43,563 nucleotides of DNA. Origin: a virus. The notes under the pieces are model-generated. The model had not been told where the DNA came from, searched no databases, and saw nothing but the letters and a program-made list of their open reading frames with translations. Below are positions 10,172-18,543 of the stretch, in pieces. The position numbers and the translations under genes are program-made. The stretch is from IMG/VR virus record IMGVR_UViG_3300043410_000352, positions 1 to 43,563 of that record; one strand, 5' to 3'. How positions within the stretch are numbered: position 1 is the first letter of the stretch; the number at the start of each line of letters is the position of its first letter.

Positions 10172-10564
10172 ATGCCTAGACGCAATGATACTGCTAGTCC
10201 AGAATCCGTGCAATCAATTTCTTTTATGATCTACGGAGAGCCAGCAAGCAAGGCAAATAGTAGGCGTGTTGTTCGCTATAACAATCTGAGCAGAGTAATA
10301 AAGTCTCAAAAAGCCTTGGACTATTCCGACCAATTTCGTCAACAATGCGTCCCGCTTGATCCGATGATGGACGGGGATTTGGTGGTGACCATCCATATCT
10401 GGTACGCATCACGCAGACCAGACCTTGATGACAGTCTGATCCTAGACCTTATGCAGGGATTGATTTACAAAAACGACAGGCAGGTGCGGGAGAGGCATCT
10501 CTACTGGCATCATGATCCAGAGAACCCACGCTCGTATATCACGGTCGAAAAAAAACCCCGGTGA
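10172..10564 (+). CDS. rusA: RusA-family Holliday junction resolvase
   Basis: 130 residues, the usual RusA size. RRPDLDDSLILDLMQG (Asp84, Asp86, Asp87) and YKNDRQVRE (Asp102) carry the conserved metal-binding aspartates; YGEPASKANSRR matches the N-terminal basic strand. It resolves four-way junctions produced by the recombination operon across the divide. GAGG precedes the ATG. Its last codons overlap the hairpin of a minus-strand terminator. Confidence 0.85.
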   Translation: MPRRNDTASPESVQSISFMIYGEPASKANSRRVVRYNNLSRVIKSQKALDYSDQFRQQCVPLDPMMDGDLVVTIHIWYASRRPDLDDSLILDLMQGLIYKNDRQVRERHLYWHHDPENPRSYITVEKKPR

Positions 10565-10878: not shown

Positions 10879-10909
10879 TTGACAGGCGTTGAAAACCTGT
10901 GGTTAAAAT
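10879..10909 (+). promoter_or_regulatory. sigma70-like promoter
   Basis: TTGACA at 10879-10884 is a perfect -35. TAAAAT at 10904-10909 (19-bp spacer) or TTAAAA at 10903 (18 bp) gives the -10. Expected start near 10916, just ahead of the structured RNA. Confidence 0.7.
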
Positions 10910-10915
10910 ACGCCC

Positions 10916-11031
10916 GTTGGTGTGTGGAAACCCAGCAGGATAGCCGTTAGATCAGACTCCGACCCCGCATGGGGTACATTCCGTTCACAAAATGGAAGGT
11001 TTCCACCGGGGTCTGTTCTAACGGCTTTTTT
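10916..11031 (+). ncRNA. candidate structured small RNA or attenuator with own terminator
   Basis: About 116 nt between a promoter and a T6 run. Outer helix: 10942-10957 with 11011-11026, 15 of 16 positions paired. Inside: ACCCC-GCAT-GGGGT (10962-10975) and TTCC/GGAA (10979-10982 with 10994-10997). A second helix, GTGGAAACC (10924-10932) with GGTTTCCAC (10998-11006), 9 bp perfect, crosses the outer helix in a-b-a'-b' order, so it forms a pseudoknot or a competing antiterminator. No known RNA family recognised; not 6S, tmRNA or RNase P by sequence. Confidence 0.65.
10942..11031 (+). terminator. intrinsic terminator formed by long-range helix
   Basis: AGCCGTTAGATCAGAC pairs with GTCTGTTCTAACGGCT across about 53 nt, followed by T6 (11026-11031). 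If it forms, transcription from the 10879 promoter ends here; if the crossing helix wins, reading continues to the nuclease genes. Confidence 0.65.
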
Positions 11032-11037
11032 GCTTTT

Positions 11038-11123
11038 GGGGTCAGGCTGAAACGGGTTAGCGCCGTGGTCACTTTTCTAAGTGTTGTTCAGCCAACTCTG
11101 CTTTATGAGAGCAGTCTGACCCC
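11038..11123 (+). ncRNA. second structured RNA element
   Basis: GGGGTCAGGCTG (11038-11049) pairs with CAGTCTGACCCC (11112-11123), 12 bp with one G-U. Inside are CACTT-TTCT-AAGTG (11070-11083) and overlapping short stems GTTG/CAAC (11083-11096) and CTCT/AGAG. The arrangement resembles a multi-branch junction and no open frame explains it. It probably lies in the leader of the operon that begins at 11361. Confidence 0.5.
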
Positions 11124-11140
11124 TCCCCACATCCTGCTCG

Positions 11141-11329
11141 GACACCATGCGGTACGTCGGTGGTGGTGTCTTAAACAACCCTGTTACATGAGCAAGCCAA
11201 AGCAGGGAGCGTGGGCGAATCCTTAGAGCGCGGTGGTTGAAATAGTCTGAGGTAGTGTGATGCGAGGACATGGCTCCGAAGGGCATGACACAGAGCGAAC
11301 CTGCAGTTTTGACTGCGGTAAGGCTGTGT
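11141..11329 (+). other. further leader hairpins before the nuclease operon
   Basis: GACACCA/TGGTGTC (11141-11147 with 11164-11170), and a two-tier hairpin: ACACAG/CTGTGT (11288-11293 with 11324-11329) enclosing CC-U-GCAGT-TTTG-ACTGC-GG (11300-11318). A short T-stretch follows. Could be leader structure or a weak terminator. Nothing recognisable between 11171 and 11287. Confidence 0.45.
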
Positions 11330-11360
11330 TTTGCTCAAACATTCACCAAAGGGCATGTAT

Positions 11361-15404: not shown

Positions 15405-17006
15405 TCATGCGGCCAACTTGATACCCTTGAAGCTGGCGGTGCCAAGGTCTTTCGACTCCTTCACAAACACGTTGTTCGGGTAGACGGGGCCGACCTGCAA
15501 CTGGATGCCCACGCCGATGGTGGTCACACCCAGGCGTTCACCCGACTCCACTTGACGGCGGGTAGCGTCACGGGCACCCTCGCCATCGGTCAGGACAAAC
15601 AGCACCTTGCGCTCCTCTGGACGGGAATAGAGCATTTCATGGGCCACACGCACGGCGAAGTAGTCGTTCGTTGACCCTCCCTCACGCAGACGGGACACGT
15701 TGCGTTTGGCCTGGGCAATCGGCATCGACCAGGGCTTGATCACAGAAGTGTAAGAGTCGAATGCCATGACGCAGGTTGCAACACCAGCCCGGCCCAGGGT
15801 GTCCAGCAGGGCATGGCAGGTTGCCACGGCGTTCTTGGCACGGGCACCGTCACGGTTGCCGATGTCATCGAACATGGATGATGACACGTCAACCAGGATG
15901 ATCACGGCGGAGTCGATGCCATCATGCTCGAACCTGCGTTTAAACACTCGGTCTGTGGTGCCTGCGTAGGGTAGGGCGTGGACGTTGATCGATCCGGCCT
16001 TGTGGTTGCGTGTCCACTCGCAGATGTCTGTGCTCTCAAACAGTTGGCGCACCTCATGTTGCAGTTTCGCAGACACCGGGACAGGCAGGTCGAACAGGGG
16101 GTTCGCCTCATGGCGCAGGTGGTGGTCGGCCTCTGTCATACGGGCGGCACGGTCGAAACACCCGGTTCCCTTGACACCCTTGGGGGCATCGACCTGGGGC
16201 TCCACTTCCATGGGGTCACAGTTCGCACCGGGGGCGGTGGCCTGACCCACGTCTGAGCCGTTTTGACCCTGTGCCGCACCCTTACCCTTACCCGACCCCT
16301 GATCGGCGCTCTGAGAGCCATCTGATGCGTCCTGGGCACCATCCTGACCGCCAGGGTTGTCCTGGGATTGATCACCCTGGTCATCCTGCTCATCCTGGGA
16401 CAGGTTCTGCAGTTGTGCGTAGACCCACTCGGCGATTCTCAGGGTGTCGGCAGATGATTTGGCGGTGGTCAGCATGTCACCAGCCTGGGCGAAGATGGGG
16501 GCCAGCCCGTCAGCCAGGGGCACCTTGGTCTGGGCATGGTCACGCAGGTAGACTGCCAGGGCGAAGGGATACACGGCGGGGTCTGCCCAATCCTTCACGT
16601 TGACCATGGACTCCTGGACAATCTGCTCGACCAGATCGGAGAGCAGGTCACGCACGTTCCCGGTCAACTTCATGTCGATGGCGTTGTGCTCGATCCAGGC
16701 ATCCTCGACTGCGTTGTGCAGGGACTGCACGTAGGTGACGTCTGAGTTGCAGGTGAAGTCCGTCCACTTGCGGTGGCACAACTCATGGATCACAAACCCG
16801 CAGTAACGTTTAAACAGAGAGGCCGGGACGACTGCGTCATCGCGGATGTCAGCAAGGTACATCTTCCCGTACTTGCTGATGCCAGCGGTGGAGACACGGT
16901 CACTCCACTCGATGTTGATGGGGTCAAGGCCGATATATTGGCAGACCTTGTGGGCCAGAGTCTCGACACCCTTGCGCAGTTCATGTCCGAAGTATTTGTT
17001 TTTCAT
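15405..17006 (-). CDS. VWA protein with HExxH domain (CobT-like)
   Basis: 533 residues. N-terminal part: HELCH at 74-78 followed by NAVEDAW (Glu101, Asp102), a zinc-peptidase-like arrangement. Middle (about 225-300): low-complexity D/Q/G/S linker. C-terminal von Willebrand A domain: MIDAS DVSSS (Asp373, Ser375, Ser377), GGST (Thr446) and LTDGE (Asp474). Resembles CobT/BchD-type partners of MoxR AAA+ ATPases; in phages the cobalt-chelatase name is misleading because no cobalamin genes are near. The start at 17006 follows GAGGA; a longer frame lacks one. It begins 7 nt after the AAA+ gene. Confidence 0.8.
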   Translation of the reverse strand: MKNKYFGHELRKGVETLAHKVCQYIGLDPINIEWSDRVSTAGISKYGKMYLADIRDDAVVPASLFKRYCGFVIHELCHRKWTDFTCNSDVTYVQSLHNAVEDAWIEHNAIDMKLTGNVRDLLSDLVEQIVQESMVNVKDWADPAVYPFALAVYLRDHAQTKVPLADGLAPIFAQAGDMLTTAKSSADTLRIAEWVYAQLQNLSQDEQDDQGDQSQDNPGGQDGAQDASDGSQSADQGSGKGKGAAQGQNGSDVGQATAPGANCDPMEVEPQVDAPKGVKGTGCFDRAARMTEADHHLRHEANPLFDLPVPVSAKLQHEVRQLFESTDICEWTRNHKAGSINVHALPYAGTTDRVFKRRFEHDGIDSAVIILVDVSSSMFDDIGNRDGARAKNAVATCHALLDTLGRAGVATCVMAFDSYTSVIKPWSMPIAQAKRNVSRLREGGSTNDYFAVRVAHEMLYSRPEERKVLFVLTDGEGARDATRRQVESGERLGVTTIGVGIQLQVGPVYPNNVFVKESKDLGTASFKGIKLAA

Positions 17007-17013
17007 GGTGTCC

Positions 17014-18543
17014 TCAGATGTTTGCGTAGACAAATGCCGCATCGATGTATGTCGAATAGATGGCCTCAAGGGCGGTGCGGGACTCAGAGGGTTGACGGGC
17101 GACAATGCAGGACGACCATGCATCGGCGGGTTGTTTGACCTTCAGGGCGCGGATGAATGCCACAACCGAGCGGATGGACGGGGCATCGATGATCTCCCCC
17201 TCGGTCACCTTCTCACGGGCTACACGCACGGCGGTCAGAACGTGCTCTGCCAGGGGCTCACTGCAACCAGTGTGATTGACCACGGCTTTGATCTCCTCTG
17301 CCAGGGGCAGATACTGGAAGTGCAGGACACGGGCGAAACGGTCAACCAGGGCTGAGTTCATGGTGCGTGTCCCTGCGTAGCGGCCCGACTCATCACCGCA
17401 ACCGAGGGTGTTGTCAGCGGCGAAGATCATCACGCCAGGGGCACGGCGGCGCACGGCACCCCCGTAGATCACGGCGCAGTTGGGTTCCAGCAGGGGGTTG
17501 AGGGTTGCCAACTCACCCTCGGGGGCGTTGCTGATCTCATCATTCAGGATGACGGTCGAAGGGGTCATGTAAGCCTGGAGGAATGATCCAGCCTTGAACA
17601 CCGTAGCCCCATTCTCCAGGCCCACGGCACCAATGAACTCATCTGCGGATGAATGCTTGTGGTAGTTGACCCGGGCGAAGTTGCGTCCGGTACGGGCGGC
17701 AAACTGACGGGCGGTCTCGGACTTACCCGTGCCACGGTCACCCCCGAACCACAGGTTCTCGCCTGTTTCCTGGACACCGAGCAGGTCTTCTAGGATGGGG
17801 CGCGTCCAGATGAACATGGGGTCAACGGCAGGGGCGGCGGGGTGGTTCCAGATGTCAACCATCAGGGGATTGCCACGCACGTCAGTCACGTCAATACCGA
17901 ACACGTCCAGGGCGGTCTTGCGCTCGATCACCCGGATGGCAGACAGGTCAGCGACAACCTCTTGCAGACCCGCATCTTCCACGGCCTTGCGGAAGGGGGC
18001 AAAGGCGTTGTCCACAACCTGGGCCACGGCGGTGTTGATCTGGGCCTCATCCAGGACGAACTTGCCCATCTTCTGGTTCAGCGCCTTGACCTCCATCTCC
18101 ATCGACACAACCCCGGATTGCAGTTTGTTCAGGCCGGAGTGCGTCTTGTCCAGGTTGCCGATGATTGAATCGATGCGCTGACCGAGTGCTTGTTTGTCCC
18201 TCTCAAACAATTTTTGCGTGTCGGTGATGCGCCCGTTGACCATCTGCTCAAGGTTGTGCAGGTTTATGCCCAGGTCAGCGATAGCCCTGGACTCAGGGGT
18301 GCGTCCGGTGGGGAGGGCGGCAGGGTGGGAGACAGGCCCGGGCACAGTGGCGTGGGTGGCAACATCATAGACACGGGTCAGGTTGAACTGCCCATCCATG
18401 ATCTGGGTTTTGAGCCAATTGATGGCATCGGCCTTGGTGACCCGGGTGTTGTCCCCGGACAGGACGTTGTATGCCCCGATGACCTTTGCCATGGGCATGG
18501 CAAGCAGGGCATTGTTCACTTCTTTAATGTTCAGGTTGCTCAT
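17014..18543 (-). CDS. MoxR/CobS-like AAA+ ATPase
   Basis: 509 residues. Helical, coiled-coil-rich N-terminus (about 80-190), then AAA+: Walker A GGDRGTGKS (about 267-275), Walker B STVILNDE (about 329-336), sensor FAADNT, arginine finger ALVDRFA (about 398). Expected to form a hexamer that hydrolyses ATP and remodels targets with the VWA partner. ATG at 18543 has GAGGAG at 8 nt; the GTG at 18552 overlaps that site and is rejected. It starts 5 nt after the SprT-like gene. Confidence 0.85.
   Translation of the reverse strand: MSNLNIKEVNNALLAMPMAKVIGAYNVLSGDNTRVTKADAINWLKTQIMDGQFNLTRVYDVATHATVPGPVSHPAALPTGRTPESRAIADLGINLHNLEQMVNGRITDTQKLFERDKQALGQRIDSIIGNLDKTHSGLNKLQSGVVSMEMEVKALNQKMGKFVLDEAQINTAVAQVVDNAFAPFRKAVEDAGLQEVVADLSAIRVIERKTALDVFGIDVTDVRGNPLMVDIWNHPAAPAVDPMFIWTRPILEDLLGVQETGENLWFGGDRGTGKSETARQFAARTGRNFARVNYHKHSSADEFIGAVGLENGATVFKAGSFLQAYMTPSTVILNDEISNAPEGELATLNPLLEPNCAVIYGGAVRRRAPGVMIFAADNTLGCGDESGRYAGTRTMNSALVDRFARVLHFQYLPLAEEIKAVVNHTGCSEPLAEHVLTAVRVAREKVTEGEIIDAPSIRSVVAFIRALKVKQPADAWSSCIVARQPSESRTALEAIYSTYIDAAFVYANI

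Follow-up and report, generated by a model that had tools for sequence, protein, structure and literature searches.

The viral DNA analysed here (IMG/VR record IMGVR_UViG_3300043410_000352, 43,563 nucleotides, hereafter the window) carries a gene for a structured RNA, RNA1, which on the evidence of sequence comparison belongs to a real, uncatalogued and apparently virus-restricted family of environmental bacteriophages, within what was searched. Comparison of the homologues establishes a promoter, a fold, a pseudoknot within that fold, a terminator signal and a coupling to a second structured RNA (RNA2) farther downstream, as well as a virus-only distribution in the searched sets (Table 1). 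The family is widespread, and the covariation that supports it, pseudoknot included, is decisive. With RNA2, what an earlier note on this DNA had taken for a lone small RNA becomes half of a cassette of two linked RNAs, and RNA1 probably controls its partner or goes along with it. We give an even chance to the reading that RNA1 is the terminated, pseudoknotted leader of this two-RNA unit and gates transcription into RNA2.

Table 1. Positions of the RNA1-RNA2 unit and its elements in the window
Feature	Coordinates	Strand	Remarks
Sigma-70-type promoter	10879..10909	+	TTGACA 10879-10884, 19-nt spacer, TAAAAT 10904-10909; read in the sequence
RNA1, pseudoknotted RNA of ~116 nt ending in an intrinsic terminator	10916..11031	+	Pattern homologues and covariance model R1
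P1 hairpin	10916..10936	+	10916-10920 with 10932-10936; loop carries the pseudoknot 5' strand
Pseudoknot helix, 5' strand	10924..10930	+	Extendable to 10932
Pseudoknot helix, 3' strand	11000..11006	+	Immediately 5' of the terminator 3' strand
P2, long terminator helix	10943..11025	+	10943-10961 with 11007-11025; 18 pairs, one U.U; encloses P3 and P4
P3 hairpin	10962..10975	+	ACCCC-GCAU-GGGGU; near-invariant within the type-A family
P4 variable hairpin	10979..10997	+	87.8% paired, 5/5 pairs compensated
U-run (T6) of the intrinsic terminator	11026..11031	+	Sequence; conserved T-run in homologues
RNA2 (class D1), conserved structured non-coding RNA	11132..11357	+	Downstream of RNA1; absent from Rfam
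RNA2 direct repeat, copy 1	11279..11287	+	AAGGGCATG, after GGCTCC
RNA2 direct repeat, copy 2	11349..11357	+	AAGGGCATG, after CACC; the next ORF follows closely

RNA1 has the layout of a complete gene. Its promoter scores at least 9 of 12 in 56 of the 67 distinct homologues, at a near-constant distance; in random windows the rate is 3.4%. RNA1 is followed by a T-run of at least five in 66 of the 67. The stable GC-rich stem and U-run, conserved according to fold, covariation and homologue comparison, identify an intrinsic terminator; a good U-run is missing from a few RNA1-like elements (L177, L149). The earlier note had described the promoter, a crossing helix, the U6 tract and an extent of about 116 nt, and all of these were recovered where it had placed them. 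Its terminator helix is likewise present, although it spans 19 positions rather than 16. The crossing helix that it called a perfect 9-bp one is indeed exact in the window, GTGGAAACC at 10924-10932 being the reverse complement of GGTTTCCAC at 10998-11006; the conserved part, however, amounts to 7 bp (10924-10930 with 11000-11006), because the P1 hairpin takes C10932. Both P1 and RNA2 had been overlooked. RNA1 is also non-coding, as had been claimed: to judge by alignment A5, its homologues differ by indels of 1-2 nt, whereas a protein-coding gene would be expected to keep its frame, with indels in multiples of three. In MW202545 (L001), the one deposited phage with RNA1, an annotated hypothetical protein (UOF78434.1, 3011-3238) overlaps RNA1 and the start of RNA2; this coding sequence is most likely a spurious gene call.

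The RNA1 strand has a folding energy of -57.8 kcal/mol (z = -6.2), a stability equalled by none of 200 shuffles. Covariation was assessed on 68 distinct model-aligned RNA1 sequences (alignment A5). Over this set the structure including the pseudoknot is 95.6% paired, and 27 of its 40 pairs show changes in both partners. None of 500 shuffles (0/500) reaches the covariation score of 0.462 (0.160 when shuffled), and slid partners give at most 0.094. Compensatory changes in homologues, whose absence had been named beforehand as a refuting outcome, are therefore strongly present. In the pseudoknot helix 99.2% of the cells are paired and five of seven pairs are compensated, with AU, UA, GC and CG all occurring in columns 25-153 and 27-151; its strands vary freely in sequence between homologues yet stay matched. 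Since covariance model R1 was built without the pseudoknot, these columns were not fitted to the model. P2 is 99.3% paired (11 of 18 pairs compensated), and P1, which shifts register between sequences, is 80% paired with all five pairs changed on both sides. RNA1 thus contains two crossing helices, P2 and the pseudoknot, each upheld by compensation, as expected of a pseudoknotted RNA. Between the two arrangements offered earlier, a pseudoknot or a terminator/antiterminator switch, only the former holds: the crossing helix and P2 are adjacent and both about 99% paired across homologues, and the switch was rejected. The two helices can coexist because they use separate, adjacent nucleotides, and they probably stack coaxially. 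RNAalifold, which cannot draw pseudoknots, found no conserved competitor of P2, and by the measure of a mutually exclusive antiterminator helix RNA1 does not qualify as a cis attenuator or riboswitch.

Among deposited phages, blastn returned a single match to RNA1, MW202545 (Siphoviridae ctpbd312, Manatee Spring), 79% identical in an alignment that spans exactly from the -35 box to just beyond the U-run. Further relatives in IMG/VR were collected with two patterns derived from the window/MW202545 pair and one gapped pattern; the first pattern gave 53 matches against about 2 expected by chance (our own estimate, from base composition alone). The resulting collection holds 106 copies, 71 of them distinct, in IMG/VR contigs, in addition to the deposited phage. 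R1 recognises one real copy per locus, nearly all at 74.7-122.5 bits (L047 at 64.8 bits), and the element is retained where the flanking genes differ between loci. Several matches were discarded: those of R1 on the reverse strand are the palindrome-like stem read backwards and not second copies, L003 matched a pattern by chance only, and 15 pattern matches in GTDB genome contigs are chance as well (several resemble hisD or palindromes, none fits R1). Neither R1 nor RF02932 (see below) matched in a subset of 369 Gammaproteobacteria genomes, nor the RNA2 motif in a subset of 398 genomes of the phylum, both searched without a positive control, and the plasmids searched held no RNA1 copy. In Rfam 15 no family matched RNA1 above its gathering cut-off, the best weak hits (CRISPR-DR13, 17.6 bits; mir-2058, 17.1 bits) being at chance level, which bears out the view that RNA1 falls in no known class. 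When RNA1, the RNA2 classes and a second RNA1 type were compared with Rfam at the gathering cut-off and at E<=10, the only match was RF02932 in MW202545. As to the host, blastn found no cultured-phage relative but MW202545, for which no host is given, and the window's terminase is at most about 57% identical to those of deposited phages; the name of RF02932 hints at Betaproteobacteria.

RNA2 of the window belongs to class D1, which is about 80% identical in otherwise unrelated loci whose flanks are not conserved; the 5' motif of this class is present in 101 viral contigs (L129-L216 are those listed for class D1). Its stems covary, with compensatory changes at 11141-11147/11164-11170 and 11221-11227/11246-11252; S3 is 99% paired against 65% when shuffled and includes all four Watson-Crick types, and 91% of the RNA2 indels, all classes together, are not multiples of three. 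The linkage with RNA1 is seen from either side. A downstream conserved block, common to at least two other loci, accompanies 68 of the 71 distinct RNA1 loci and falls into several classes; L047 has RNA1 and no RNA2. Conversely, when sequences were scanned automatically for the combination of P1, pseudoknot, long stem and U-run, an RNA1-type gene was detected upstream of 65 of the 83 distinct D1 RNA2 copies and in 5 of 399 random windows. Many of these upstream genes have an entirely different core sequence (e.g. GCCGTTTACTCATGC...GCAGTAGTAAACGGC) and the same topology. The gap between RNA1 and RNA2 is mostly 28-31 nt (range 24-38), so short that in most relatives RNA2 has no room for a promoter of its own. 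In the window it is about 100 nt because of an inserted hairpin. This long hairpin (11040-11125; GGGGTCAG...CTGACCCC, with GGGTTAGCGCC) partly resembles the sequence behind RNA1 in L069. Where RNA1 is absent, RNA2 is mostly preceded immediately by a -10-like CATAAT element; RNA1 thus behaves like a module that can be present or absent between promoter and RNA2. A terminator follows RNA2 in few loci only (2 of 10 in class D4), so that RNA2 often serves as leader to the ORF that follows.

The RNA2 directly behind RNA1 in MW202545 (class D4; L001 3174-3291) is the Rfam motif Betaproteobacteria-1 (RF02932, 100.1 bits; gathering score 49.4), which Rfam types as 'Gene; sRNA'. Class D4 shares with the window's RNA2 the layout of a direct repeat behind GGCTCC and CACC. 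Nevertheless Betaproteobacteria-1 is the partner and not RNA1 itself, and neither RNA1 nor the window's RNA2 matches its model, the latter not even at E<=10 (cut-off 49.4 bits). An orphan motif hereby gains a context: in one deposited genome it forms the latter half of a phage cassette of two RNAs; such a two-RNA unit of phages was not found in the sources searched. Behind RNA1 there are several further classes of conserved non-coding RNA (in L004, L030, L044, L054, L068, L072, L104, L105 and others), some of which have in common a 5' module, CGTACTCCGCACGATAG...GCGCGGAAG, as well as a core containing CCAGCCTGTCAGCGAGGGACTGG; those that were scanned had no match in Rfam.

Within RNA2 lies a direct repeat that constitutes a testable molecular puzzle. 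In class D1 it is at most 11 nt long and in fixed register, with the copies 63-86 nt apart in nearly all loci. Its sequence is locus-specific, and the two copies match within a locus: the mean shared word is 7.3 nt, whereas shuffling the partners 2000 times gave 3.95 nt, and 4.76 nt at most. Where the gene downstream is the same (MxITREWLD...), both copies read GGGTCA, CAGAGG or CAACGG, depending on the locus; this points to a concerted change in place and not to re-insertion. No consistent site complementary to the repeat was found inside RNA1 or RNA2 or nearby. That copy 2 is a mere Shine-Dalgarno sequence was rejected, as several loci have a copy 2 unlike an SD or an ORF that begins farther downstream, and copy 1 matches even there.

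As a gate, RNA1 might work as follows. Transcription would start at the strong sigma-70 promoter, and the first 20 nt or so would fold as P1; once P3 and P4 have been made, the P1 loop would pair, as the pseudoknot, with the segment that immediately precedes the terminator 3' strand. P2 and the U-run would then stop most polymerases and release the RNA of about 116 nt, termination in vivo being inferred here. Read-through might be spontaneous, or might occur when a phage or host factor on the knotted domain or on RNA polymerase keeps P2 open, and such polymerases would enter RNA2 (about 29 nt on in most relatives) and then usually a downstream gene. Read-through would thus be the regulated step, and the knotted domain a candidate site for the controlling factor. 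A gate in cis is supported by the near-constant, short spacing, by RNA2 having no promoter and by RNA1 being optional. Some facts count against it: the fold is more elaborate and the type-A core more conserved than a plain terminator needs, the U-run is poor in L177 and L149, and L047 has RNA1 without RNA2. As no conserved antiterminator helix opposes P2, a switch in cis would need a trans factor; the same lack of a competing helix, with the elaborate fold, leaves room for a trans-acting role.

RNA1 could instead be an autonomous, protein-binding phage sRNA that acts in trans and not as an antisense RNA, with RNA2 as a second trans RNA made by read-through from the same promoter, a reading that we regard as possible although less than probable. 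It accounts well for a gene complete from promoter to terminator and for an elaborate conserved fold with a pseudoknot free to vary in sequence, which suits a shape bound by protein. The downstream genes, moreover, are unrelated between loci, which makes a single controlled gene unlikely, and Betaproteobacteria-1, a related RNA2, is typed as an sRNA. An independent sRNA would not, however, be expected to keep a near-constant short spacing and a near-obligatory link to RNA2, and because the conserved core is wholly different between RNA1 types no constant target sequence is visible. More speculatively, the two RNAs may form one RNA-programmed system of a new kind, in which RNA1 is the pseudoknotted launcher or gate, at a near-constant distance before RNA2, and RNA2 an exchangeable part with a short, variable, guide-like repeat matching its own 3' boundary. 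The target would be DNA or RNA of the phage itself, and no dedicated protein would be encoded next to the system. Attenuators and terminated leaders, among them lambda PR'-tR', likewise combine a promoter, a short structured leader, an intrinsic terminator and more transcribed sequence. RNA1 shares this order, with transcription beyond; it differs from attenuators in having no helix that competes as antiterminator, a conserved hairpin-loop pseudoknot adjoining the terminator, and another structured RNA behind it. That RNA1 is nothing but a PR'-tR'-like leader, made constitutively as a short transcript, with a terminator that a phage antitermination protein overrides by acting on RNA polymerase and with a fold of secondary importance, would explain the strong promoter, short leader, strong terminator and transcribed region behind them. 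We consider it unlikely, as the pseudoknot, P1 and P4 are kept by compensatory change, so that the RNA itself matters, and the genes downstream serve replication in some loci and packaging in others.

Two further readings fare worse. The RNA1-RNA2 transcript might form an R-loop, with repeat copy 1 pairing to template DNA at copy 2, and thereby prime or mark an origin. Persistent RNA-DNA hybrids are formed by ColE1 RNA II (review PMC5043065), to which the proposed pairing of an internal purine-rich segment with the template near the 3' end bears a likeness; here, however, both RNAs are encoded on one and the same strand, nothing corresponds to the antisense RNA I, and GC skew gives no general support for an origin. 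The copies do vary in concert, at a fixed register and with no complement in the vicinity, and the tract after copy 2 is purine-rich (64-77%, against 50% at random), but so are control sites at SD starts (0.59). The cumulative GC-skew minimum of the window (10757) adjoins the element; across 27 contigs, in contrast, a minimum lies near it in only six, and the skew jump there is not special (median rank 0.31; 2 of 27 in the top 10%). A general role as replication origin, promising in the window, was therefore rejected, RNA1-RNA2 does not qualify as ColE1-type, and the R-loop seems to us very improbable. Hardly credible is an ordinary strong terminator with secondary pairing by chance and no function beyond ending transcription: the strong GC-rich stem and U-run would fit, but covariation of P1, P4 and the pseudoknot already contradicts this, and the single copy per locus with its conserved promoter and the conservation of the element where flanks are not conserved also speak against it. 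GOLLD, ROOL and other large, ornate phage-associated RNAs are structured, non-coding and of unknown function. RNA1 is likewise a structured non-coding phage RNA; it differs in measuring about 116 nt and in having a promoter and a terminator to itself, and has no match in Rfam.

The unit occupies various genomic settings. In the window it has a RusA-like gene (10172-10564) on one side and a Toprim/DnaB-like helicase operon on the other, while a Sak-type single-strand annealing protein and a PD-(D/E)XK nuclease stand opposite; no relatives of the 68-aa ORF downstream were found. In other loci it precedes terminase, HNH, zinc-ribbon or PAPS-reductase-like genes (names read from the sequences). 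Elsewhere in the window, 15405-18543 encodes CobT-like and CobS-like proteins, which match PHROG families of cobalamin/porphyrin biosynthesis.
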